A DNA stretch of 64,000 nt from IMG/VR virus record IMGVR_UViG_3300033553_000478, positions 1 to 64,000 of that record, one strand, 5' to 3'. Source of the stretch: a virus. Made by a program: the position numbers and the translations under genes. Of this stretch, positions 15,912-47,682 are shown piece after piece. The stretch's first letter is position 1. Each line of letters starts with the position of its first letter. The notes under the pieces are model-generated. The model saw only the letters and a program-made list of their open reading frames with translations. It was not told the origin of the DNA and did not search any database.

Positions 15912-17585
15912 TTAGAAAGTGAATGATGTTGCTTTTTGAGTAGCAAGTGTATGACCTACAAGGTCTCCACCAGCCCAAGCTGCAGACGCTTTCAAGATAC
16001 CACAAGAGCGAGTATCGTAAAGAACTGCCATAAGCTCAGAAAGCATATGGATAGAACATCCATCAAAACCAGAAGAGGCAGAGTTACCATTCTCATTAGC
16101 TGGGTTGAAAGAAGTCATACCGTCTACAAACTTACGTTTGAAGCCTCTGTCTTGACGAGAGAATACTTCAAAGTTTGGCACACCATCCACAGGAGTAGTG
16201 TTCAAGATGTAGATGTTTCCAGTACCTACCAATCCACCATTTGTTGGGTATAACCCTGGGTGGTTGAATAGTTCGTCTTCGATAAGTACAAACTTGTTTC
16301 CAAGGTACTCATAGGTAGTCACTTCGAAACCAAGAGTCATGTTCTGACCAGTAGTAACGTTGTAAACAATGTTAGACGCTCCACCAGCGGTAGAGTCATA
16401 CTGCATCAACTTTTTCATACCGGCATCAAAAGCAGTACGGCCGATACGGTCAGTAATTGCTAAAAATGTGTTTCCGGAAGAACCTTCAGGAGATCTTACC
16501 GCCAATGTGTTGGTGATAGCCTCGATCATTGTATGAGCCAAACCGTTGTTTGGGTTATAATCGAAAGTGGCGTTATCCTGAATTTCAGGAATCCAACCGT
16601 TTCCGATTACCGGCGCAGCAATACCAGACTCTTGTTGGAATCCATCAAGAGTAAGTTTGTTGGTACCGTAATTCTCATACCAAGCGTGAGAGCTTGGATC
16701 CATAGAAGAACGAGAGAATCTAAGAGCCTGCTCATTCAACATTCTGAAGATACGCTCACCTCTTAAAACTTCAGCGAATTCCCAAGCAGAGTTGGACTGA
16801 TCACCACCGTTGTAGATGTTAGCGATTTTCTGCTTCTGAGCAGAACCTGTCATTGTAAGGGTGTAACGAGTAATGAAAGAGTAGTTAATTCTCCATTTGT
16901 TTCTCGCAGTCCTTTGGTAACCTTTCAAAGATCCCTCTCCGAAAGCAGAACCACCTTCACCGAAAACTACACCATTGGCGAAGTCTGTTTCAGCAAAAAG
17001 GGCCTTGTTACCGATAGTCTTACCATCGTACACGAAGTGATCTCCAGTACTGGCTTTTCTACCTGGACGGGTGATGATCACGTTCAAACCAAGACCGTTT
17101 CCTAATGGAATCTTGTCGTTAGGGTTGTACTTATCACCGAAAATACCATTCACTGGATCGTGCTGAACAGAAACAGATATCAAAGTATCAGTCTCAATAG
17201 TCAACGCTGTTTTCCCATTTGCATAGGTAACTCCAGCTAAGGCCGTCATGTTAGGAGTCGGGTTTGCTCCGTCGTGCCATCCACCTACAACCGCTTTACC
17301 AAAAGAGTATGCCGGTAGGATATCCATACCTTCATAAGAAATTCGGTAAGCATTGTCGTTGATAGAAGTGTCGGAATTCGACTTCTTCATTTTTCCTTTT
17401 CTTACTCCCTGGTTCACACGTCCAGTGTAATACATCCAAGATTGGAACTTGTTGTATTTTTTGAAAAGGTCGAAAGACTTTCTTTCGATTTCGAAGTGTT
17501 TCTTCATCAACGTGGTCAATGAATTAGCTTCAGTGTGGATTTGAGGGTTGAAACGCTCTTCAGCGCCTCTTAATAGTAATCCCAT
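15912..17585 (-). CDS. Major capsid protein
   Basis: The 557-aa product directly follows the scaffold and portal genes. An N-terminal helical arm (about 10-70) leads into a long beta/alpha body, and the end (FEVFSRQDRGFKRKFVDGM, FDGCSIHMLSELMAVLYD) is of the style seen in HK97-fold capsid proteins of crAss-like phages. Soluble, no membrane segment. It has its own candidate promoter, a 5' inverted repeat and a strong terminator, consistent with very high late expression. Identification is by position and size; the fold is inferred. Confidence 0.8.
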   Translation of the reverse strand: MGLLLRGAEERFNPQIHTEANSLTTLMKKHFEIERKSFDLFKKYNKFQSWMYYTGRVNQGVRKGKMKKSNSDTSINDNAYRISYEGMDILPAYSFGKAVVGGWHDGANPTPNMTALAGVTYANGKTALTIETDTLISVSVQHDPVNGIFGDKYNPNDKIPLGNGLGLNVIITRPGRKASTGDHFVYDGKTIGNKALFAETDFANGVVFGEGGSAFGEGSLKGYQRTARNKWRINYSFITRYTLTMTGSAQKQKIANIYNGGDQSNSAWEFAEVLRGERIFRMLNEQALRFSRSSMDPSSHAWYENYGTNKLTLDGFQQESGIAAPVIGNGWIPEIQDNATFDYNPNNGLAHTMIEAITNTLAVRSPEGSSGNTFLAITDRIGRTAFDAGMKKLMQYDSTAGGASNIVYNVTTGQNMTLGFEVTTYEYLGNKFVLIEDELFNHPGLYPTNGGLVGTGNIYILNTTPVDGVPNFEVFSRQDRGFKRKFVDGMTSFNPANENGNSASSGFDGCSIHMLSELMAVLYDTRSCGILKASAAWAGGDLVGHTLATQKATSFTF

Positions 17586-18798: not shown

Positions 18799-21036
18799 TC
18801 ATTCTGATGCTGAGGTCTGTTTTTGTGCGGCAACCTCTAATTCAGCTGCTTTTATCTTCTCTGCGGAGGTTACTTTTAATCCCTCTGTCAGGGCCTTATT
18901 GTTAGCGTAAATAGTGGCTACAACTTTTTCAGTTTCATTGCCTTCTCTGGCCTTCAACATATCCTGATCTCTCAATTCTTTCTCTGCAGCGGCTTGTGCT
19001 TCAGCTTGCTTAGCAGCATTTTCAGCAGCTTCAGCACGAAGTTTCTCTAAAGCATTAAGCATTCTCTGGAATACAGCTTTTTTCTCAGAAGCAGATTCTC
19101 CCTCAAAAACTTCAATCAATCCCATTATCATATCTGGGGCAGATTGTCCGGCATTACCCAGGGCAACTTCAGCTGCGGCATCAATACGATCAGAGGCCTC
19201 TTTATCTTTCCTACCATCGGAAAGATAAAGTCCGTAATCAGAATCAAAGAATTCCTTGAACATCTTCATGAACTTGGTCTTCATTTCTCCGAAAACGAAT
19301 TGAATCAATTCACCTTCTTCATAATCATATTTGCCTTTCATTATCACAGCTTCGCACAGAGCCTGTACAAAATCATCGAAAGGACCATAGATTATTTCTG
19401 TTCTGGCAGTACTTCCGCGGATAGCTTTATCTGTACCGGTAGCAGTTTGATACTGCCCGATCTGTCCTTCCCTCTCCGGAGAAATACCAACAAACTTTGC
19501 AGCAAGATCTTCTATAATGGCAAGTCCATTAAACAAATCCTGAATAGATCCCTTTTGAGATAAGTCAAGGGAAGTAAATTGGTTAAAGGTGTGCTTATTG
19601 GATTTTTTCTCTGCAGAGTTAATGATCATCAACTTATCTTTTTTGATGTGATGCATTACCCTGTTCAATCCATTTTCATAGGATCCTTTTGAAAATGCTT
19701 TCGGAGTCTGGGCAGCATCGTACACGAGTACCCGGCTATTTCCCGCAGACTTTAAAGCAAGACGTATTTCAAAAAGAACCTCCGAAGCAATTTCCTGCAG
19801 TTGATATAATTTAGCAGCTACAGATTTTATGTGAGAAGTACCGGTAGTATTATCCCTGATAATTGATATTACAGGAAGTTTACACTCATACGGATTTAGT
19901 TTGGTAGAATATCTGTGAGGCATTAACCCCCAATCCAGGCAAATATCTGGACCAATCATAATACAGAAACGTGGCATTTCGCCATCGATATGTTTTACGG
20001 TATCTGTCTTGCGGATCTCCTTTTCACTTTTCAGTTTTCGGTAAACCTTTTCTCCAGTTTTTTTGTTCTCGGCAATTTTAATGGAAACTCTTTTTCTGGA
20101 CTTCCACATTGCGTTAACCACTCTGATACGGCCAACCTTATTTGAAGTCTGGAACCATCCATTAGCTTTAGAAGTAACTCCCAGAGCTGAAGAGTCCATA
20201 TCTCCCTCGGTAGGAGTAGATAAGGTTTCAAAGTGTTTTTTTATTTTAGCTTTTTTATCTGCATCTAAAGTGAAGCTGTTGTAAACTTCATTTTCAGTAA
20301 GCCAATAATTCTCAAAGAAATATTCGTGATTCGCCTGTACAACACTGTAAGGATCTATATCGTAATCGGCATCTAAAGGATGCACGTTACGAGCTGTAGT
20401 GTAACCGTGCTTTTTGTCAAGGATCGCGTGGCATCTATCAGTAATACAGTAATTGATAAAAAGCTGAGGTAGCTTTTGCTTTTCCTTGCGAACGTCCAGG
20501 AATAATGAAAGCAGATTGTCCGCTACTTCCTCACCCAACATTTTGAAGTCTTTTTCAAAGAATTCTTCAATGTCTTTTGGTAATGGAACTTCAGGGTTTT
20601 CAGTTTCCGGAGTATACCCAAGATCTGCCTGCATCTTTTTGGTAAGATCCCGCATAATTTCTTCGCTGATCAGCTTTAGCTTTTCCTCGAATTTTGCGTT
20701 CATAGACTTCTTATCCACTACATAAGCCTTTCTCCGGATTGGACGTAACAGATATTCCCCAACGATCTGTTCCACCTTATTCTGAATAAGTGGGTAAACT
20801 ACATACTCAATCCCAAGGTCAGTACCATTAGGACAGGTAATAGCTTTTATTTTTGCCTGTTCCTCAGGACTCAACTCGCAGTTGTAGGCCCTGTAGTACT
20901 TGAGCATATTTGCTTTCTCGCTGTTATAATCTTGTGATAAAGAGAATTGAGCATACTGCAGCGGGTGTAACATATGCCATACTTCATCCTTTTCTGTTTC
21001 AGGAATGGTTTGATCGGGGAGAGAAAGAAGACTCAT
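18799..21036 (-). CDS. Portal protein
   Basis: The 745-aa protein follows TerL in the packaging cluster. The pattern is that of a phage portal: N-terminal helices, a mixed wing and clip region around 180-420 (LNPYECKLPVISIIRDNTTG), a stem and crown part with long helices (LYQLQEIASEVLFEIRLALK), and an Ala/Glu-rich coiled-coil C-terminus (about 660-745). The length is in the range of portals of large podoviruses. It forms the dodecameric DNA entry ring. Identification rests on synteny and architecture. Confidence 0.82.
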   Translation of the reverse strand: MSLLSLPDQTIPETEKDEVWHMLHPLQYAQFSLSQDYNSEKANMLKYYRAYNCELSPEEQAKIKAITCPNGTDLGIEYVVYPLIQNKVEQIVGEYLLRPIRRKAYVVDKKSMNAKFEEKLKLISEEIMRDLTKKMQADLGYTPETENPEVPLPKDIEEFFEKDFKMLGEEVADNLLSLFLDVRKEKQKLPQLFINYCITDRCHAILDKKHGYTTARNVHPLDADYDIDPYSVVQANHEYFFENYWLTENEVYNSFTLDADKKAKIKKHFETLSTPTEGDMDSSALGVTSKANGWFQTSNKVGRIRVVNAMWKSRKRVSIKIAENKKTGEKVYRKLKSEKEIRKTDTVKHIDGEMPRFCIMIGPDICLDWGLMPHRYSTKLNPYECKLPVISIIRDNTTGTSHIKSVAAKLYQLQEIASEVLFEIRLALKSAGNSRVLVYDAAQTPKAFSKGSYENGLNRVMHHIKKDKLMIINSAEKKSNKHTFNQFTSLDLSQKGSIQDLFNGLAIIEDLAAKFVGISPEREGQIGQYQTATGTDKAIRGSTARTEIIYGPFDDFVQALCEAVIMKGKYDYEEGELIQFVFGEMKTKFMKMFKEFFDSDYGLYLSDGRKDKEASDRIDAAAEVALGNAGQSAPDMIMGLIEVFEGESASEKKAVFQRMLNALEKLRAEAAENAAKQAEAQAAAEKELRDQDMLKAREGNETEKVVATIYANNKALTEGLKVTSAEKIKAAELEVAAQKQTSASE

Positions 21037-21062: not shown

Positions 21063-23249
21063 TTAATTAATATTCATATTCCGCTTATGCTCTTCCAGAA
21101 TGAATGCGAAAGTATCATTCCCATACTTGGCCATTATCTCATCACGTTCCTCTTTTACTTTCTGTACAGCACTATTTTTAGATTCCTGGTATTGGCGTTT
21201 TTCATCACCTTCCAGATCATATTCCGGATCAAATATTGATCTCGACTCATTGTAATCATAAGGGTTATTATCCCGGTAATCTTCAGCGTAACTTTTAAAT
21301 TTATATTCTCCATTCTCAATTACCCAAGTTCCCATATCATCGATAATATCTCCATCTCTGGAGTCTTCATCAATACCATCGGAAATTTCACCAAACATTT
21401 CCAACTTATAGAACATACACATTGCATAAGCAGAACCTAAATCCGAGTTCTTATCACCGAAATCAATAAGGTGGTCTAAGATCTCTTCAAACCAAATATT
21501 GTTGAAGTTCTGGTTCACCTCTTTTTTCATTAGCCTGGTGGCAAAATTGAAAGCATACTGGTTCGGCATTTTTAAACCATACTGGTTTACAGCTCTGGAA
21601 TTATAACCGTGCTCCCCAAGATCTGGCCGAGCTTTCAAATGCTTCTCTCCATTGATATCAAGGAAATAATTTTTTATGGAAATTTTGGTATGCTCCAGTA
21701 ACATTTCAGAATCGTAGTAGACAGATAGCCTGAAAGTATTTGAGTAAAATTCATCGTCATTATCTGAGCTTCCCCTATCAAGGATATATGCTACTGGTAA
21801 ATCAAATTCTTTATTTGGACCACTGAATAATCGATATACAATAGTTGCCCCCAGCGATCCTGTTCCTTCGATCACATCATCATCATAACTATCACAACCA
21901 ATAATATCCGGATTGAATGGTAATCTTGAGTGGTCGATAGGATCCAGGATTTTTTTAATAGTTCCAAACTTCTCATTCTCCATAAATTTTATTGAAGAAC
22001 CTCTGTTGAAATGTATCTTATCAATTTCCTTTAAATCTTTTGCCCTGGAAACAAGCATTTTTGTTTGACTATCCTTAGGTACCCATTCCAAAGTTCCGGT
22101 TACGATTGGATAAGGACAATTTTCTAAATTGTTCTTTTGAGCATTAAGCTTTTTACGGTTTAATAAACCTCCGGAGTTTTTAATGAAGATATCAGACTCT
22201 TTCAGCGGATAGGATTGAATGTGTTTTACATATCCTTCCGCTCCCTCTTTTTCAGCACGTTCTTTTAGAATGTGCTTCAAAGCAGCCTCTTTGTTTGTAC
22301 GTCCGGTTTTGAAATCAAAGAATGAAATCTTCTTTCCGGTTTTTTCATCAGCAACACCATCCCCAGGATAGAAATCTGTAGAAGAAACGAATATCTTCTT
22401 CAGGTTATATTTCTCCGGGTTATCCCACATAATTTTATAACCCTTGGATCCTTTTTCAATTTCTCCACCGGTACCATAAATAAGCGGAGTTCCAAACTGA
22501 TCAGCTCCGTTTCTAAAACAAGGTTCAGTCGATTTGTAGGCAGCAATGATATCATCGAACAAACCGGCTTCCTCAAATACAGCCATTGAAAGAGTCTTAC
22601 CCTCGAATCCTGTTGGCTTGGCATACATCGTCTTCATATACATTGAAGACATAAGGCCACCCTCTTTCTGCTGTTTGTTCTCGGTATACCAGTAGCTTAA
22701 ACGAATTTCATCTTTGTTTTTTACACTGGTAGCTGCGCGATATTCTTCGCGAACATTGTCAAGGATATACCGAACTTTCTCATAGAAATCCTGAGCTTTA
22801 TCATCCTGTCCGGCAGCTACTCCAATCCTGTTGCCTTTGTAAAAAAGCAATTCGTATGCGCAAGCAGAGGATCCGAACCAGGACAATCCCACTCGACGTG
22901 GCTTACCTATGATCAGTCCATACATTCCACGCTTGGCATCATCCAGCGCATTGTACAAAACCCTGTCAAGTTCCCTGTAAAAAGGAGAACCCATAGTTTT
23001 CCGAGTTGCCCCGGGTTCCATGAGTTCTATATTACAGTTATTCAGGTAAAAATAATGCACCCCTGTTATCGACGGCATAAATGGCTTAGGCCGATATCCA
23101 GTAATACATCTGAGATCTTGTAAATCCCAGAAATCATCGTATGCTATAGTCCCTGGATTATAGTCAGGAATCTCCATATGAACCAATGGTTTATAGAGAT
23201 TACTGTCAAATTTATTCCAGTCAATGTTAACTTGCATATTGGGGGGCAT
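21063..23249 (-). CDS. terL: Terminase large subunit
   Basis: The 728-aa packaging ATPase-nuclease has a Walker A-like GKPRRVGLSW near residue 112, a Walker B-like MAVFEEAGLF near 221 and a coupling motif region (IFVSSTDFYPGDG). The RNase H-like nuclease half starts near 440 with the metal-binding Asp in DIIGCDSYDDD. It powers DNA translocation through the adjacent portal and cuts the concatemer. The start at 23249 (MPPNM) could alternatively be Met5. A terminator-like hairpin lies just upstream. Confidence 0.92.
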   Translation of the reverse strand: MPPNMQVNIDWNKFDSNLYKPLVHMEIPDYNPGTIAYDDFWDLQDLRCITGYRPKPFMPSITGVHYFYLNNCNIELMEPGATRKTMGSPFYRELDRVLYNALDDAKRGMYGLIIGKPRRVGLSWFGSSACAYELLFYKGNRIGVAAGQDDKAQDFYEKVRYILDNVREEYRAATSVKNKDEIRLSYWYTENKQQKEGGLMSSMYMKTMYAKPTGFEGKTLSMAVFEEAGLFDDIIAAYKSTEPCFRNGADQFGTPLIYGTGGEIEKGSKGYKIMWDNPEKYNLKKIFVSSTDFYPGDGVADEKTGKKISFFDFKTGRTNKEAALKHILKERAEKEGAEGYVKHIQSYPLKESDIFIKNSGGLLNRKKLNAQKNNLENCPYPIVTGTLEWVPKDSQTKMLVSRAKDLKEIDKIHFNRGSSIKFMENEKFGTIKKILDPIDHSRLPFNPDIIGCDSYDDDVIEGTGSLGATIVYRLFSGPNKEFDLPVAYILDRGSSDNDDEFYSNTFRLSVYYDSEMLLEHTKISIKNYFLDINGEKHLKARPDLGEHGYNSRAVNQYGLKMPNQYAFNFATRLMKKEVNQNFNNIWFEEILDHLIDFGDKNSDLGSAYAMCMFYKLEMFGEISDGIDEDSRDGDIIDDMGTWVIENGEYKFKSYAEDYRDNNPYDYNESRSIFDPEYDLEGDEKRQYQESKNSAVQKVKEERDEIMAKYGNDTFAFILEEHKRNMNIN

Positions 23250-24697: not shown

Positions 24698-24948
24698 TAG
24701 ATAGATTTGTATTTAATTTTCTTATTTCCTTTAATGTGCTTGACAAAGTACCCGCTTGAGCTGGGTGCATCGTACATAGTTTTCCATTGTCCTGCAGATA
24801 CAGGAATATAACTGTAAACACTATCATTCGTTTTGAAATGAACATATAATGTTTGTGCTGCAGGGTTGTAAACTACCTCTTCAATAAGAGAGCTTTCAGG
24901 TGTCTTTTTACGTGGCCAGTCAGGGTTCACGGGTACTTTATGGTCCAT
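24697..24948 (-). CDS. KTSC domain protein
   Basis: The 83-aa protein matches the KTSC domain pattern: SSLIEEVVYNPAAQTLYVHF near the N-terminus, a Tyr-x-Tyr strand (VYSYIPVSAGQW), then SSSGYFVKHIKG, with the Lys, Thr/Ser and Cys-site region at the end. KTSC proteins are small beta domains, sometimes next to nucleic-acid enzymes; function unknown. Start codon overlaps the GroEL stop. Confidence 0.75.
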   Translation of the reverse strand: MDHKVPVNPDWPRKKTPESSLIEEVVYNPAAQTLYVHFKTNDSVYSYIPVSAGQWKTMYDAPSSSGYFVKHIKGNKKIKYKSI

Positions 24949-26597
24949 TAATAACCAGGGGGATTTTGAAATTTCTTATATACTTCAGGATCTACGATAA
25001 CACATTCCGTAGTAAGTAGCATTCCGGCTATAGAGGCAGCACTTTCCAGCGCAACTCTTGTAACCTTTACAGGATCCATAATGCCGGAAGCGATCATATC
25101 ATCGCAAACTTTCCCGGTTCTGGCATCATAACCAGCACTGAAATTATCTGCAATTTTCCTGAAATCCATTTCCTCTAAATCTACTCCAACATTTTCAATG
25201 ATCATTCCGAAAGGTTCGCGTATAGCTCTAAGAACAATATTTGCTCCATACATTTTACTGGCATTTCTTTCTTTGGTGTCAAACTCAATAGTCGAAAGAG
25301 TTAATAATGCAGCTCCACCTCCAGGAATAATCCCTTCTTCATTTGCGGACTTTACCGCGTACAAAGCATCCTGAATCCTTCCTTGTTTCTCGATATATTC
25401 AGAATCGGAACGAGCGCCTATATTGATATAAGCAATTCCGTCTGATATCCTGGAGATACGAGTCTGCAATTGTGACTTCTCAAACTGCTGAGTAGTATTT
25501 TTCAAAACTTCCCGTAAATGATCAGCACGATCGGCCATTCTTTTCTGAATAACCTCATCCTCTTCATCGGAAACTCCAAAGGCACCTTTGATAGAAGTTA
25601 CCTGTTCCTGAACAGTAACTTCTTCAGACTGGGGAAGGTAATTGAAAATCTCTGCCGTAGGAAGATCTTCAAACTGTGTTCCTTCATTTTCAATGAAAGG
25701 ATCCTTACCCAATACAGCTCCTAAATCCCGAAGTAATTCCTCAGTTTCATTTCCGAAACCTGGGGCCCTTACTACACAACATTTGAAACCAGCTCTGGTA
25801 ACATTGTAGATAAGCATATCCTGAATGAGATCGTCAATGCCTGGGCAAATGATCAGTAAAGCTTTTTGAGTTCTACCACATTCCATTATCAGATGTTCCA
25901 AATTTGGCTCCATTTTGGAAAGCTTCTTATTGGTCATAAACACATAAGGCTCTTCCAAAATACAAGTTTCCTCTTTGTGGTTGTTTATGTAATATCTGGA
26001 ACGGTACCCGGTAGGTAAGGTCATACCTTCGATACTTGTCATATGCGTGACATAATCATTCGACCGCTTAATGTTTACAATTCCTTGTCTTCCTGCTACC
26101 TTAAAAGCTCTGGTCACAATATCTGCAGCTTCCTCATCATTGTTGGAAGCAACCAGGGCAACCTTTTTGAGCATTTCCAAATCATTCTCAACCGGCTTTG
26201 CTTTTTCAAGAAGCTGTTGAACGATTAATTCTACCGCTTCGTCGATACCCTTCTTAATATCGAGTAGGTTCAGTTCCTCAGGGAAATTTAATCCCTGTTG
26301 CAATATAGCTTCAGCAATAACAGTGGCGGTGGTAGTTCCATCTCCGGCTTTATTGTCGGTATTGTTGGCGATATCCTGCAGCGACTCAATGGCCACCATC
26401 TCAATAGGATCATCAGACCAAACCTGTCCGGCAACCGTTACTCCATCCTTGGTTGAGAATGGGCGGCTTTCCTGTCCGTTTCTAATTAAAACATTACGGC
26501 CAGATGGTCCTAATGTTACTTTTACTGCTCGGGCTATTTTATTGGCGCCCGCCAATAGGTTTTGGCGGGCCTCCAATGAATACATTGTTTTTTTCAT
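24948..26597 (-). CDS. groL: Phage-encoded GroEL chaperonin (HSP60)
   Basis: A near full-length group I chaperonin of 549 aa. Hallmarks: VKVTLGPSGRNVLI at 26-39, KDGVTVA near 50, GDGTTTAT at 85-92 containing the catalytic Asp, the APGFGN motif in the apical domain, EEGIIPGGGAAL around 418-428, and GIMDPVKVTRVALESAAS near the end. It lacks the usual C-terminal GGM repeat, ending instead in KKFQNPPGY. It should fold phage proteins such as the capsid. It is followed by KTSC and packaging genes; a GroES-like gene lies 0.9 kb upstream in the same transcript. Confidence 0.95.
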   Translation of the reverse strand: MKKTMYSLEARQNLLAGANKIARAVKVTLGPSGRNVLIRNGQESRPFSTKDGVTVAGQVWSDDPIEMVAIESLQDIANNTDNKAGDGTTTATVIAEAILQQGLNFPEELNLLDIKKGIDEAVELIVQQLLEKAKPVENDLEMLKKVALVASNNDEEAADIVTRAFKVAGRQGIVNIKRSNDYVTHMTSIEGMTLPTGYRSRYYINNHKEETCILEEPYVFMTNKKLSKMEPNLEHLIMECGRTQKALLIICPGIDDLIQDMLIYNVTRAGFKCCVVRAPGFGNETEELLRDLGAVLGKDPFIENEGTQFEDLPTAEIFNYLPQSEEVTVQEQVTSIKGAFGVSDEEDEVIQKRMADRADHLREVLKNTTQQFEKSQLQTRISRISDGIAYINIGARSDSEYIEKQGRIQDALYAVKSANEEGIIPGGGAALLTLSTIEFDTKERNASKMYGANIVLRAIREPFGMIIENVGVDLEEMDFRKIADNFSAGYDARTGKVCDDMIASGIMDPVKVTRVALESAASIAGMLLTTECVIVDPEVYKKFQNPPGY

Positions 26598-26598
26598 A

Positions 26599-27486
26599 TT
26601 ATACTTTCTGGGCTCCTAAGATTACTCCAAGGTGGAATTTTGCCTGTTGTGCGTGCACATAGGCCTGGGTTCTACAAATGGCTGCATTTCTGGAATTGTA
26701 ACCAAGATCGAAATAGTTCAAATCTACAGAGTCGATCCAATCAATGATTTTATCAAGATCTTTTCTCAGCTGAATAGTAGCTTTGAAAGTATCAACCAGG
26801 TTAAAGCGATTAAGCTCTGCCTTGAAGTGATTGCTATCATCGTGATCTGCAGTAGCAGGAATTTCATTTCTTCCCTGAATTTTATCCTCTCCGGAGTAAG
26901 GGTTCTCAGAACCAAATGCTGCAAGGAGTTTACCCAACCAGGCTTTAGCTAAGAAAATATCTGTTTCCGGAGTGGCATTAATCCTGTGATGCGCCTGAAG
27001 GAAATGAAATAATTTGTCAAGATCCAGCCTATAGCCTTTTATCTCAGCAATCATTTCCTGCTTAGCTTCTTCATTTGCCTGGTCAATCGCAGCCTGCTCT
27101 TCCTCAGTAATCTCTTCATCATTTACCTGAAGCTGCTGCTGATCTGCAACCACATTAGGATTGGCGAATTTTGATTCGTCGTCCTCGGTACCAGGATTAG
27201 CATCTTTGATATCCTGAATACGTTTGTCGATCATTTCAAATGCACCTTTACGGTGATCATCACGAAGTTCAATCTCACGAAGCTGCTCAAGTTGAGCTAT
27301 ATCATTGATATCATCTACTTCTTTTTGAAACTCCGGAAGGAAATTATCTTGAATCTCTTCAAGATCTTTCTTCTCTGGCTGCTCATCGCCCGCAAGGACT
27401 TTAGCATCACTTGATGGTTGAACTTCTTTAGTAGCTTCTACCTTTGCGGGAGCTGGGGTTGTGGTTTTCTTAGTGGCTTTGGCCAT
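26599..27486 (-). CDS. Hypothetical acidic protein between GroES-like and GroEL genes, 295 aa
   Basis: The N-terminal 170 residues are low-complexity and acidic, opening with an Ala/Pro/Lys segment (TKKTTTPAPAKVEATKE) and containing Glu/Gln-rich coiled coil. The C-terminal 110 residues look globular and helical (LFHFLQAHHRINATPETDIF, YNSRNAAICRTQAYVHAQQA), and that part could be a phage assembly helper. The gene ends 1 bp before GroEL starts, so the two are tightly co-expressed. Not recognised. Confidence 0.65.
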   Translation of the reverse strand: MAKATKKTTTPAPAKVEATKEVQPSSDAKVLAGDEQPEKKDLEEIQDNFLPEFQKEVDDINDIAQLEQLREIELRDDHRKGAFEMIDKRIQDIKDANPGTEDDESKFANPNVVADQQQLQVNDEEITEEEQAAIDQANEEAKQEMIAEIKGYRLDLDKLFHFLQAHHRINATPETDIFLAKAWLGKLLAAFGSENPYSGEDKIQGRNEIPATADHDDSNHFKAELNRFNLVDTFKATIQLRKDLDKIIDWIDSVDLNYFDLGYNSRNAAICRTQAYVHAQQAKFHLGVILGAQKV

Positions 27487-27504
27487 CGTTTTTGAATTTA
27501 AAGA

Positions 27505-27804
27505 TTAATGATTGTTTTTATCCTGGTCCATACGCACCAGATATTTGTAGGCATCAGCAACCAATTCATATTTGCCAATGCCTTTAATCTCAATTTTATC
27601 GGAAAGATCAGTCTTGTAGTAAATGATCTTTCCTTCCCTGTCCTGGGGCAGATCTTCACCTACTTTTTCGATAATTCCAACGTGAACCGGCATAGTTTCA
27701 AGTATACGGGTTGAAAATTCTCCTTCCGGAACAGCGAAATAGTCCTTCAGGCGAGTAACTAAGTACTCTTTTGGGTTGATAACAATTTGCGAAACGTCTG
27801 GCAT
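27505..27804 (-). CDS. GroES/gp31-like co-chaperonin candidate
   Basis: Start chosen at ATG 27804 (MPDVSQIVINPKEYLV), giving 99 aa, the GroES length; the longer frame would overlap the upstream gene. The sequence shows the co-chaperonin order: N-terminal strand, a mobile-loop-like stretch at 26-39 (PEGEFSTRILETMP) with hydrophobic IL, then VHVGIIEKVGEDLPQDREGK like the GroES strand GxVxxVGxG, and a C-terminal YELVADAYKYLVRM strand. It precedes a GroEL gene in one operon. Similarity is weak, so structure prediction would decide. Confidence 0.6.
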   Translation of the reverse strand: MPDVSQIVINPKEYLVTRLKDYFAVPEGEFSTRILETMPVHVGIIEKVGEDLPQDREGKIIYYKTDLSDKIEIKGIGKYELVADAYKYLVRMDQDKNNH

Positions 27805-27814
27805 TAATTTAAGT

Positions 27815-28273
27815 TTATTGGTTATAATTAAATTCAATAATAGTCCAATCATCAGCAATCATATCTGTCTGAGAAGCCAGCCAACCATTTACTATGGTGT
27901 TATCTGCAGCTTTCATGCAGATATAAGCTGTAACCTTTACCTCTGTTTCCTCGCTTCCGTGAACGAAAAACTCTTTCACTTTCCTTGGAATAGAAACAGC
28001 TCTTTCAACTATTGACATTGGAAGAGTATCTTCTGGCCGAATAAACAGGAACATATTTTTCCCATTCCATCCAGATCTTTTAACCATACAGCCATCTTTT
28101 AAAGCTGCAATAGCTTCACCGAAATTACCCCGGCCAAGGTGTAATGATCCGTAAGGACCAGGAGAAGCTTGAGAGTCTAAATGATCAATAGCTTCTTGAA
28201 CTAAATCAAGGGCGTTACCTCCATCGCCCGGAGATCTTAATGCGTGTCGAATGTCTAACAGTCTTTGTTTCAT
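27815..28273 (-). CDS. DUF2829/Tad2-like protein, candidate Thoeris antagonist
   Basis: Residues 49-150 match the DUF2829 (Thoeris anti-defence 2) pattern: NFGEAIAALKDGCMVKRSGW then NGKNMFLFI, and a C-terminal NGWLASQTDMIADDW. Characterised Tad2 proteins form tetramers that sequester the gcADPR signal made by Thoeris. Many DUF2829 phage proteins are untested, so activity is inference. It has an extra helical N-terminus of about 45 residues (MKQRLLDIRHALRSPGDGG). It overlaps the exoribonuclease gene by 4 bp. Confidence 0.75.
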   Translation of the reverse strand: MKQRLLDIRHALRSPGDGGNALDLVQEAIDHLDSQASPGPYGSLHLGRGNFGEAIAALKDGCMVKRSGWNGKNMFLFIRPEDTLPMSIVERAVSIPRKVKEFFVHGSEETEVKVTAYICMKAADNTIVNGWLASQTDMIADDWTIIEFNYNQ

Positions 28274-42756: not shown

Positions 42757-44709
42757 ATGGAACAAATGACCAAAGAGCAGTATATGGAAATGCTTAACTG
42801 GGATCAATCCCTTTACAAAATCATATCTGGTGAGGAAGCCGAACCTTTGTTAAAAATCGGTGGCCACCAGAATTATGTTTATGCTGTTTCGCCTAAAGGT
42901 GAGAAAGCATTTGGTAAAGGATCCAAGGTTGTCAAGATTGATTGGGCAGAAAAGCATTCAGCCCCAGCCGTAGAGCAAACTCCTGCTGCAGCAATTCCAC
43001 CGCCACCGGCAAACATACCACCCGCCCCGGCCGCTGCAAGCATACCACCTCCACCAGCTACGGAAGCTGCTATTCCACCGCCTCCGGCACAGGAAGAAAA
43101 GCCAGTAGAAGATAACTCCGTTTATGAATTGAGATTGGCGCAGCTGAAATCAATTGGATGGAATCAGGTAAGTGATAATGTCCTTGAACGTAAAGACGGT
43201 AAGAGGGTAAGTAATGATTACCTGAAGATGATGAATGATGATGCATTTATGGATCTTATGAAAGCTCCCCTGGAAACTCCTAAAGAGGAACCAGTGAAGG
43301 AAGAAGTTAAACAGGCTGAGCCTGCTTGGGAACCATACATAAAAACCCGAGTGGCTAATTTAATTAGCCAAGGCTGGAAAGCCGATCAGAACGGCAATTC
43401 CGTTGTTATTTCCCCTGAAGGGAAATACTACGGATTTATGGAGATAGGTGAGCTCAGCAATAAAGATTACACCGATCTTATCAAAAAGCCGGAAGTTCCT
43501 GCAGAGATCAAAGAGATCGCAGATGCCTCTCCGAATGTGCATATAGTTACTATGCCTAAGGATGATGAACCTACGGCTGAAGATATCGCGAAAGAGAAAG
43601 CTAATAAGCTTTTACAAATTCGCAGAATTGCACTTTCAGCACTTGGTTTTACCAATGCTCCTGGAGCTGCTATGTGGCAATCTGATATCAATCACAACGT
43701 GAGCGATAAAGAAGTGATCGCAATGGGAGAAGATGAATTCAAAGACTTCCTGAAACTTATGGATGGTAAAATAGTTACCGTCAAAGCTCAGAAAGCCAGT
43801 GAAGATCGTCAGGCCAAAAATGAAGAAATCCGGAAGCAGAAAGAAGCTGAACAGTCTAATCCTGATGTAGGAGTTGAAATAGCAAATGAAGCTGCTGAGG
43901 TTGCCGAGAAGTCAATAAATGAAATGGCAAATGAAACCGAAGGTATGTCAGCTGTAGAATTGGATGAACACGATGTTCGTAAACTTGCTATTGAGCAAGC
44001 TCAGAAACGTGATGATGCCGAGATCGATAAGTATGAGGCTGAGAAGAAAATGGATGAATTGATGGAGAAGCTTCAAAAAGAGAATGATGCTCACAAGGAG
44101 CAATTCGAGAAATGGAAGCAAGATCTCATTGCTGAAACTGAAGCGGAGAAAAAGAAAATCCGTGAAGAGTATCAGCAAAAAGAATCTCCAATGACCACCG
44201 GAGATGCTGGTGGCTTCTTCGGTTTGCTTGCAGAGCTGGGTTTTGGGCAGCTGAATTTATCAGTGACAAAGTTGGAAAGCAATAAGTTCAGCGTTATCGT
44301 GAAGCCTCAAAACTTCTCAGGCGATCCAGCGTTGGATGAAATTCGTCCAATGACTTTAAGCGGTTCTCCTGCAGAATTAGATGAAGGTTTCTTCGCTGCT
44401 ATCAGCCAGCCATTACAGAAAGTCCACGGTGTTATGAGTAACGCCCAGGCTGTGATCGCTGATCTGGAAGAGAAAGCCAAGAAAACCAAGGCTGCAGAGG
44501 AAGAGAAAAAGAAAGTCACCAAAGCTGTAGAAAAAGCTAAGAAGCATCATGATGATAAAGATTTTGATGCAAAAAGTGATGCCTCTCTGAAAACTGCAAA
44601 GAAGAATTGGGATGCTGTACTGGCATTGGATCCTGGTAATAAGGATGCAAAGGCCGGACTTGATAAGCTGGAGAAGCAAATCAAGGAGAATGCTGAAACT
44701 CTTCTTTAA
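42757..44709 (+). CDS. PRTRC system protein E, with long proline-rich and coiled-coil N-terminus
   Basis: 650 aa, far longer than a usual protein E. Residues about 484-590 carry the E domain: FFGLLAELGFGQLNLSVTKL, FSVIVKPQN, then MTLSGSPAELDEGFFAAISQ. Before it come a linker with IPPPP repeats (about 75-118), repeated small domains each near SIGWNQVSDNVLERKDGKRV, and a charged coiled coil (380-480). After it come a Lys/Glu helix and a TPR-like tail (ALDPGNKDAKAGLDKLEKQ). E is a core component of the ParB-related ThiF-related cassette; its biochemical role is unknown. Confidence 0.8.
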   Translation: MEQMTKEQYMEMLNWDQSLYKIISGEEAEPLLKIGGHQNYVYAVSPKGEKAFGKGSKVVKIDWAEKHSAPAVEQTPAAAIPPPPANIPPAPAAASIPPPPATEAAIPPPPAQEEKPVEDNSVYELRLAQLKSIGWNQVSDNVLERKDGKRVSNDYLKMMNDDAFMDLMKAPLETPKEEPVKEEVKQAEPAWEPYIKTRVANLISQGWKADQNGNSVVISPEGKYYGFMEIGELSNKDYTDLIKKPEVPAEIKEIADASPNVHIVTMPKDDEPTAEDIAKEKANKLLQIRRIALSALGFTNAPGAAMWQSDINHNVSDKEVIAMGEDEFKDFLKLMDGKIVTVKAQKASEDRQAKNEEIRKQKEAEQSNPDVGVEIANEAAEVAEKSINEMANETEGMSAVELDEHDVRKLAIEQAQKRDDAEIDKYEAEKKMDELMEKLQKENDAHKEQFEKWKQDLIAETEAEKKKIREEYQQKESPMTTGDAGGFFGLLAELGFGQLNLSVTKLESNKFSVIVKPQNFSGDPALDEIRPMTLSGSPAELDEGFFAAISQPLQKVHGVMSNAQAVIADLEEKAKKTKAAEEEKKKVTKAVEKAKKHHDDKDFDAKSDASLKTAKKNWDAVLALDPGNKDAKAGLDKLEKQIKENAETLL

Positions 44710-45278: not shown

Positions 45279-46339
45279 CGCCAATACATCATTATAGTAA
45301 GCTTGAGGTAATGGAGCAATTCGAGCCATTTAATTTCAATGGCATATCGAAAGAAGATTTTGAAAAGTTCCTCGAGAAGTTTGATGTAATGCTAAAGAAC
45401 AGTGGCTACGATCTGGATGATGATATAGAGAATATAGACTGCTTCAGTGACTTCTACAAATATCTTGGGCAATTCGCAAATAAGCTGAATTGTCATTATG
45501 ATATTGAGTATGAAGAATTGATGAGGTTCACTGGTGATTTACCTATTCAAGAAACAAACATTCAATCTATAAATACATATTGGGTTGAGAAGCTGATAGA
45601 TATTTTACCGCCAGACATAGCGCTGTATTTGGATTACACTTGTTTTGTAATCCTTCAGAGAGCTACCAAAGTTATGCATTATGATTACCACCTTGCGGAA
45701 GAACCTCTGGAGTATAAGTACGATGAAGAGGAAGAATATGCCGATCAAATACAGATGTGGCATAAGCTTAATAGTTACACTATTGTCCTGTACAAGAAGT
45801 TTATCAAGGACAAAAAAACCATAGTTTCACCTTGCCCGGTTATGAAAGGCAGGCCAGAGAAGGAGCAGCAAATAATTAAGATCTGCAAGTTCCTGGTGAA
45901 TCATAATGAATATATGGCACTTCAATTTATGCCGGTAAAATTCTACTTGCAGTGTTGCGGAGAGTCGCATGACGAAGATAGTGAGGAAATGAGCCATATA
46001 GCTACACAGCTTATTGATGGCGACGGAGAGTATGCCGTAGATGCATATTACAATGCTTATTACGTGCTGACTTATGATAACGGGAACAGCTCATTAATAG
46101 ATGATTATTGTGAGTTCCTGAACCAGGCATATCAAATGAATGAATGGTACCACGAAATGAGCAAGATTGTCAAGGTCAATCACAAGAATGAATTTATTCC
46201 TGTAAACAAGAAAGCCGCCAGAACAGTTGTAAAATATCACGACTCATTTGGCGATTTAAACGAACTTTTAAAAGCATATTACGATGAGAGAGTTGGTGCA
46301 AACAATGAAGCCTGTATCGCTGTTGACAGTGTACGATAG
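45176..46339 (+). CDS. PRTRC system protein F candidate
   Basis: 387 aa, helical, with a basic disordered start (MRSNNKKSAEKSPKPKPAET) and a folded body containing IDILPPDIALYLDYTCFVIL and a long acidic segment. Position between protein C and protein B, and the length, match PRTRC F. I could not verify individual signature residues, so the call leans on synteny. No membrane segment. Confidence 0.6.
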   Translation: MRSNNKKSAEKSPKPKPAETSRSYTNITEYLSHLAPIHHYSKLEVMEQFEPFNFNGISKEDFEKFLEKFDVMLKNSGYDLDDDIENIDCFSDFYKYLGQFANKLNCHYDIEYEELMRFTGDLPIQETNIQSINTYWVEKLIDILPPDIALYLDYTCFVILQRATKVMHYDYHLAEEPLEYKYDEEEEYADQIQMWHKLNSYTIVLYKKFIKDKKTIVSPCPVMKGRPEKEQQIIKICKFLVNHNEYMALQFMPVKFYLQCCGESHDEDSEEMSHIATQLIDGDGEYAVDAYYNAYYVLTYDNGNSSLIDDYCEFLNQAYQMNEWYHEMSKIVKVNHKNEFIPVNKKAARTVVKYHDSFGDLNELLKAYYDERVGANNEACIAVDSVR

Positions 46340-46907
46340 TGGCTATATAGATTACCGAGATGTATTGGAAGCGGGAAAGGTTTCAGCTTCCAGACCATTA
46401 TACCAGGAAACCATAAATGATATTTTCGCAAATCTGAGAGGTGATCATAACCTTAAAAGATTTGAAGGTGTCATTCCAAACAAAATGGTTTATGTGGATC
46501 CAATGAGAGATCTATTTGTCTGGACCAGAAAAGCGGAAGTCCGGGAACTTCTACATACAACAAAGAAACATTCCGGAAAATATGCTATTCCTACTCTTGT
46601 ATTTCGCATTGAGAAGGGCAGTGTGAGTGTTGTGGCCATAAAGAAATTGGCTATCAATTCTCCTGTATATATTCCCCCGTTTACAAACACAGCAAATGGC
46701 GATGTTTGTATGGGTTCCGCTTCTCTGAAAACCGAGACTTGCGACTGCATTGAAGATCTGGTTGAATATGCCGAAAACCAATTCTACAATTCCTATTTCA
46801 CTCATTCCCCGACTGAGTACCAGCTTTTGGGAAAAGGTAAATCTACCTTCCCCAAAAAGGAACTGAAGGCAATGGGTATTAACCTAAAGCAATTTATAAA
46901 TGGATAG
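46305..46907 (+). CDS. PRTRC system protein B, E2-like
   Basis: 200 aa from ATG 46305; ATG 46284 would add 7 residues, and both overlap protein F. The protein has PLYQETINDIFANLRGD, VDPMRDLFVWTRKAEVREL, and the conserved core PVYIPPFTNTANGDVCMGSA followed by FYNSYFTH. PRTRC B is the prokaryotic E2 family D (Prok-E2_D). Cys135 in DVCMGSA is the likely thioester cysteine and His167 in YFTH a conserved partner. It overlaps the E1-like gene by 8 bp. Confidence 0.83.
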   Translation: MKPVSLLTVYDSGYIDYRDVLEAGKVSASRPLYQETINDIFANLRGDHNLKRFEGVIPNKMVYVDPMRDLFVWTRKAEVRELLHTTKKHSGKYAIPTLVFRIEKGSVSVVAIKKLAINSPVYIPPFTNTANGDVCMGSASLKTETCDCIEDLVEYAENQFYNSYFTHSPTEYQLLGKGKSTFPKKELKAMGINLKQFING

Positions 46908-47682
46908 CTTGAAAGTTGATCCGTATTTAATAAACGGACAGCACAGAATAACTGTGCTCGTAGTGGGAGCTGGTGGAACTGGTGGAAAGGTACTTACCAA
47001 GCTTATAGCTTTACACGAAGCTTTGACAAGAATGGACCATCCTGGTCTATACGTTACAATGGTGGATCCTGACATAGTAGAGGATCACAATGTAGGCCGG
47101 CAATCAAATTTCAGTGCTGCAGATGTAGGCTACTACAAAGCTGATGCGCTGATTAGCAAAGTGAATGCCGCTTTCGGATATGATTGGGATTGTGAGAATG
47201 TACCATATAGCAATGCTCACGCTGCCAACATAGTATTTTCCTGTGTAGATAATGCTGAAGCCAGAGCCAAAATATTGGATGCATTTTTCAAAAGGCAGCA
47301 GATGTATGATACCAGGAAAGGCTTTTACATATTTGATTGCGGTAACGCCCGGGATTATGGCCAAGTCATTCTGACTGACCAGAAGCACACCCTGAAGCAT
47401 ATTGGTGATATTGTCCCGGATTGGGATAAGCAAGATACTGTAGAGCAGCAGGGAGAATCCTGTAGCTATGCTGAAAGCTTACGAAAGCAAGACCTATTCA
47501 TTAATGATTGGGTTGCTCTGTATGCAGTGAATCTCTTCAAAGAATTACTATTCAAAAAGGAGATTGATTACCAAGGAGTATTTTTCAATACTGCAGATTT
47601 TGATGCAGTTAAAATCAAGATTAACAATGGCAGTAAGAAACGGAGAAAGACTCGTAACAAATTGGTGGACCGAAAAAACTGA
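46900..47682 (+). CDS. PRTRC system ThiF-family protein, E1-like
   Basis: 260 aa. Rossmann ATP-binding loop VVGAGGTGG at 21-29, the E1 signature VDPDIVEDHNVGRQSNF with acidic and Arg adenylation residues near 55-71, CVDNAEAR near 113, and the PRTRC ThiF motif ESCSYAESLRKQDLFINDW with a candidate cysteine near 189. ThiF/MoeB/E1 enzymes adenylate the C-terminal glycine of ubiquitin-like proteins. A basic tail ends the protein. Overlaps protein B and the following small gene. Confidence 0.92.
   Translation: MDSLKVDPYLINGQHRITVLVVGAGGTGGKVLTKLIALHEALTRMDHPGLYVTMVDPDIVEDHNVGRQSNFSAADVGYYKADALISKVNAAFGYDWDCENVPYSNAHAANIVFSCVDNAEARAKILDAFFKRQQMYDTRKGFYIFDCGNARDYGQVILTDQKHTLKHIGDIVPDWDKQDTVEQQGESCSYAESLRKQDLFINDWVALYAVNLFKELLFKKEIDYQGVFFNTADFDAVKIKINNGSKKRRKTRNKLVDRKN

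Follow-up and report, generated by a model that had tools for sequence, protein, structure and literature searches.

Does a phage that encodes its own GroEL also encode the lid that closes it? The question is raised by a locus in one virus record of 82,833 bases (IMGVR_UViG_3300033553_000478), of which 64,000 bases, referred to here as the window, were analysed. As originally predicted, a complete GroEL gene and a 99-aa gene are present at this locus, within a run of minus-strand genes that leads on to those of the phage head. The reading that we favour, and consider probable, is that the phage encodes a two-part chaperonin of its own, consisting of a 549-aa GroEL-type chamber and a 99-aa divergent Cpn10 that would act as its lid. 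The features concerned are listed below in minus-strand reading order.

27815-28273, minus strand: Tad2-like gene (PF11195, 2e-22)
27505..27804, minus strand: 99-aa predicted divergent Cpn10 (GroES-like co-chaperonin), assigned by profile match, AlphaFold2 model with structure search, and conserved linkage to GroEL
27685..27750, minus strand: putative mobile-loop equivalent, residues 19-40 of the 99-aa protein, placed by low model confidence and loop comparison
26599..27486, minus strand: 295-aa gene between the 99-aa gene and GroEL; its C-terminal half is related to a stretch with a weak match to the Acb2/Tad1 hairpin family
24948..26597, minus strand: GroEL, group I chaperonin by sequence, 549 aa (PF00118, phrog_5725, ATPase residues intact)
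25785..25844, minus strand: apical helix I region of GroEL, residues 252-271, with Tyr at the V264 position (residue comparison; contact residues from PMC3514286)
24697-24948, minus strand: KTSC-domain gene, next after GroEL
Between the KTSC-domain gene and the terminase gene, minus strand: three small conserved genes
21063..23249, minus strand: terminase large subunit (phrog_6681, 1.3e-50; crAss-like at about 25%)
18799..21036, minus strand: portal protein (phrog_6547, 1.7e-41)
15912..17585, minus strand, further on: major capsid protein, Crassvirus type (PF23898, 1.7e-10, above the cut-off)

The Crassvirales markers present are a Crassvirus-type capsid protein (PF23898), the terminase and the portal protein (phrog_6547). 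Given the Crassvirus-type capsid match and a terminase whose nearest relatives are those of crAss-like phages, at about 25% identity, the phage is crAss-like and far from the named ones. Three relatives (L110, L121 and L210) are found on contigs of 82,432, 82,526 and 82,257 bases, near the length of the window record, which suggests that these four are near-complete genomes of one new crAss-like group. The terminase follows the Cpn10-GroEL pair across the lineage, and in the window the portal and the Crassvirales-type major capsid protein come after it on the same strand, in agreement with the claim that the chaperonin genes stand upstream of the head genes. The terminase large subunit and the chaperonin genes are likely part of one late block.

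The chamber is readily recognised, and its sequence indicates a complete group I chaperonin. It matches PF00118 over residues 21-536 (E 2.7e-52; 178.5 bits vs a cut-off of 34.3) and phrog_5725, “chaperonin groEL” (5.9e-123); it keeps the ATP-site residues D52, D87, D398, K51, G415 and D495 (E. coli numbering), and has no GGM-rich tail such as E. coli GroEL carries. It passes the NCBIfam subfamily model PRK12849 (426 bits vs a cut-off of 352) but misses the equivalog cut-off of TIGR02348 (420.8 bits vs 582), and it is thus a GroEL-type Cpn60 and not a GroEL equivalog by NCBI’s rule. The whole 82,833-base record has one GroEL. Its nearest solved relative, as found by phmmer, is a reconstructed ancestral Fibrobacteres-Chlorobi-Bacteroidetes chaperonin, while the nearest cellular GroELs, in one pattern-limited scan of bacterial genome contigs, are at most about 38% identical across the full length. 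Searching bacterial genome contigs with this GroEL returned cellular GroELs only, and no prophage or host copy was found there. In a maximum-likelihood tree, the GroELs of the lineage form one group (100/100 support), separate from those of bacteria and of other phages; long branches make the deeper placements uncertain. The original prediction held a full-length GroEL to be rare in phages, a view that has to be given up: GroEL matches occur in 262 phage records, and in 199 of these the match spans 80% or more of the length; in IMG/VR, at least 593 stretches encode a GroEL.

The 99-aa gene is a real, conserved gene. It has an ATG start and 99 codons, and its relatives favour this start, hence a protein of 99 aa rather than the 117 aa that would result from an upstream TTG. 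Taken alone, the protein matches nothing in Pfam, PHROGs or NCBIfam and nothing meaningful among PDB sequences, tblastn with it found no phage record, and HMM, phmmer and tblastn searches with the protein alone or with a three-sequence profile retrieved no Cpn10. Because the protein is invisible alone, its relatives were gathered stepwise in IMG/VR, with the 99-aa protein, GroEL and a conserved 207-aa gene near the terminase as hooks. The resulting family comprises 11 distinct sequences from environmental viral contigs, of which the 10 others are 26-54% identical to the window copy, and all 11 genes are located upstream of GroEL, either directly or one or two small genes away. The coordinates originally given for the locus are correct, and the gene stands upstream of GroEL as had been proposed, but the arrangement differs from the classical groES-groEL dicistron in that a 295-aa gene (26599-27486) lies between, separated by 18 bases from the 99-aa gene and by 1 base from GroEL. 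This intervening gene is kept across most of the lineage. GroEL is also found with other small upstream genes at L209, L111 and L213, for which a Cpn10 identity could not be shown. At L111, a 120-aa gene directly before GroEL has a GroES-like loop, TKEGFIVIPD, with no Cpn10 identity established.

Even as a family, these proteins escape standard models. No member scanned matched the curated Cpn10 models PF00166 and phrog_3188, the 11-member profile was still unrecognised among PDB sequences, iterated HMM searching seeded with viral Cpn10s failed to retrieve the family, none was found in bacterial genome contigs searched with the family, and no second Cpn10 was found in the phage record. One may argue from the lack of an HMM match, and from a three-sequence AlphaFold2 run with a pLDDT of 42 and no fold match, that the 99-aa protein is not a Cpn10 and that any fold match is an artefact. 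Direct profile comparison points the other way. When the 11-member profile was aligned by hhalign with 14 short viral Cpn10s, it scored 33.05 (probability 83%, P 9.1e-6), with family residues 9-91 placed on columns 4-84 of 84, whereas the best of 500 column-shuffled controls scored 19.1. As decoys, six other gene families from the same loci were compared with these Cpn10s; they were similar in depth to the 99-aa family, apart from a Tad2 set of 3 sequences, and none exceeded a score of 12.9. The match to a broader Cpn10 set was weaker (score 25.3, probability 39%), and E. coli-type Cpn10 was matched less well than short viral Cpn10. With nine family members in the profile, the real score was attained by one shuffle in 600 against the broader set and by none against the short viral set; with only three family sequences, hhalign gave a P of 0.08. 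By these comparisons the 99-aa protein is homologous to viral Cpn10.

Structure prediction leads to the same assignment. The AlphaFold2 alignment consisted of the 11 family sequences, none of which, among those scanned, was called a Cpn10 by the HMM libraries, and the best of five models has a pLDDT of 84.5 and a pTM of 0.78, the other four being weaker (pLDDT 50-78). The predicted fold of the protein alone is a Cpn10 beta-barrel; no other fold, which would have spoken against the original prediction, appeared. In a Foldseek search of the PDB with this model, ranks 1-13 are all Cpn10, GroES or gp31 (probability 0.95-1.00), with weak E-values of 0.005-0.1, the best being 0.005. VIA-align gives Z-scores of 9.1 for Thermus Cpn10, 8.6 for GroES in 4pko and 7.7 for gp31, followed by oxidoreductases at 6.3 and below, and the top matches in a viral structure library are GroES (4.6e-5). 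Model confidence is low around residues 21-40, between strands 13-18 and 40-48, the first two, which is where a mobile loop is expected, and the mobile-loop-like stretch that had been noted is thus in the right place. As to the label “gp31-like”, no particular affinity for gp31 emerged: T4 gp31 gave no profile match to the family, and its structural Z is no better than that of other Cpn10s. The profile test and the structure test, the former with shuffled and real decoys and the latter with an alignment free of recognised Cpn10s, agree and are largely independent, which makes an artefactual fold match very improbable. The 99-aa protein is best regarded as a Cpn10 homologue by profile and predicted fold and not as a canonical GroES, for which both the HMM match and the IVL-type tripeptide failed.

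This tripeptide leads to the question of how such a lid might dock. In E. coli GroES, the loop tripeptide IVL contacts L234, L237 and V264 of GroEL (PMC3514286), and the ordinary viral Cpn10s listed for comparison all carry a hydrophobic triad (GSIIV, GNIVV, SGIII etc.). A hydrophobic tripeptide of the IVL type is missing from 10 of the 11 family members, the remaining one, from L121, having VLL; instead, all 11 carry [DN]-[YF]-[YF] at the loop start, often with an aromatic residue in mid-loop. On the side of the chamber, all 58 viral GroELs that accompany an ordinary Cpn10 have V, M, L or F at position 264. All nine GroELs of the lineage instead have Y, Q, E, R or T there, and in them A258 is also replaced by I, V or Y (9/9) and T261 by M (7/9). 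These substitutions suggest that the docking interface has been rebuilt on both the lid and the GroEL side, and because the lineage is one clade, the change of loop and groove counts as one event. A strict coupling of a polar residue 264 with loss of the tripeptide was weakened by cr108_1 (R264) and L111 (E264), which have more canonical-looking loops, and the idea that the L234 contact has changed too was abandoned, since helix H cannot be aligned unambiguously around a small indel.

Loss of the docking tripeptide could mean that the 99-aa protein no longer binds any GroEL. It might then keep the Cpn10 fold for some other job, for example as a virion or regulatory protein, without capping GroEL, and Cpn10-like barrels do occur in quinone oxidoreductases and ClpP-associated Cpn10-like proteins. 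We regard this as quite unlikely, for the gene stays beside GroEL across divergent phages, the Cpn10 length and a poorly ordered loop are retained, and the GroEL groove is altered as well. With loop and groove both altered, lid and chamber are probably fitted to each other and not to the GroEL and GroES of the host. Where [DN]-[YF]-[YF] replaces the tripeptide and the groove lacks the hydrophobic residue 264 on which such a tripeptide packs, one can tentatively go further and propose a pair orthogonal to the host GroES-GroEL, that is, a naturally private chaperonin system, a proposal about which we remain somewhat doubtful.

Phage GroELs and phage GroES-GroEL pairs are already known, also in crAss-like phages; the novelty here lies in a Cpn10 family that HMMs fail to detect and whose docking loop has changed, together with an altered docking site in its GroEL. 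An ordinary Cpn10 is present at 58 of the 78 viral GroEL loci examined, annotated GroES/GroEL pairs occur in Flavobacterium phages immuto and elemo and in crAss-like cr111_1, and GroES-GroEL pairs in phages are mentioned in a passage of PMC7185714 that cites Marine et al. 2017. In Bacteroidota phages (Flavobacterium immuto and elemo; Bacteroides SJC03/DAC), as here, the Cpn10 gene is directly beside a phage GroEL, which is 29-36% identical to that of the window, but unlike the 99-aa protein their Cpn10s are recognised by PF00166 and have the docking triad intact (GSIII, SGLYL, SGIII). Among Crassvirales, phi14:2, cr108_1 and cr111_1 also have GroEL upstream of the terminase, with that of phi14:2 and cr111_1 placed similarly to the window’s, and these three and phiCrAss001, crAss-like too, have a Cpn10-like gene near the terminase. 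However, their “10-kDa chaperonin”, annotated as such in cr111_1, is another and longer Cpn10-like family (126-136 aa) with no direct match to the 99-aa family, and its gene is on the other side of GroEL.

These comparisons bear on a further explanation, in which the 99-aa protein is an adaptor of the gp31 type that serves as a lid for the host GroEL, and the phage GroEL works lidless like those of EL, OBP and AR9. The lids of T4 and RB49 do act on host GroEL, a co-chaperonin is reported to be dispensable for the giant-phage chaperonins (PMC9598537, PMC7185714), and a 10-kDa chaperonin is found in many crAss-like phages (43 records), with GroEL annotated in few of them. Like the 99-aa protein, T4 gp31 and RB49 CocO are sequence-diverged phage co-chaperonins with a Cpn10 fold, but they are unlinked to any phage GroEL and retain the hydrophobic loop triad (SGLII in gp31) expected for a fit to host GroEL, whereas the 99-aa gene is constantly linked to a phage GroEL across the lineage and its loop has lost the tripeptide. 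As for EL, OBP and AR9, they too encode GroEL homologues, but these are much more distant, the window’s being a group I Cpn60 with a linked Cpn10. We therefore consider a gp31-type adaptor unlikely.

Returning to the phage’s own two-part chaperonin, we infer how it might be assembled, partnered, supplied with clients and made independent of the host from what was computed, namely GroEL identity, intact ATPase residues, Cpn10 homology and fold, conserved linkage, and the changed loop and groove. The 549-aa protein would form GroEL-type rings, bind unfolded phage proteins and hydrolyse ATP, and the 99-aa Cpn10 would assemble as a ring-shaped lid and close the chamber. The lids formed by GroES and gp31 are heptamers. 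Since the chaperonin genes are followed on their own strand by those for terminase, portal and capsid, the most likely clients would be these head proteins, with the major capsid protein as the likeliest one, and capsid folding independent of the host, as proposed in the original prediction, is plausible; that interpretation is on the whole partly supported.

Phage co-chaperonins can thus diverge beyond the reach of standard HMM searches, and it follows that phage GroELs thought to work alone may have unrecognised lids. A distant GroES homologue for phage EL was left open (PMC7185714). If the rebuilt interface is true, it would provide a natural chaperonin/co-chaperonin pair separate from the host’s, useful for studying docking specificity, and would bear on head folding in crAss-like phages.

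Some neighbouring genes deserve mention. The C-terminal half of the 295-aa protein matches a stretch of L111 (hhalign P 9.3e-6, with shuffles far lower) that itself weakly hits the Acb2/Tad1 hairpin family, and the 295-aa protein may consequently be, or be related to, a cyclic-nucleotide sponge. L111, a distant relative, encodes an RyR-domain and Acb2/Tad1-hairpin protein upstream of GroEL (L111:3826-4461 and L111:5378-7422 region). The Tad2-like gene (PF11195), for which an anti-Thoeris function is possible by sequence, immediately precedes the Cpn10 gene both in the window and in L107 (L107:1483-1785), and in L121 it lies just downstream of GroEL (L121:6655-6978). On the plus strand, the window also contains a PRTRC-type set (42757-44709, 46284-46907 and 46900-47682) with a PRTRC protein E domain (3.9e-23), a Prokaryotic E2 family D match (8e-17) and a ThiF/E1-like match (1.1e-13), predicted from these domains to be ubiquitin-conjugation-like enzymes.
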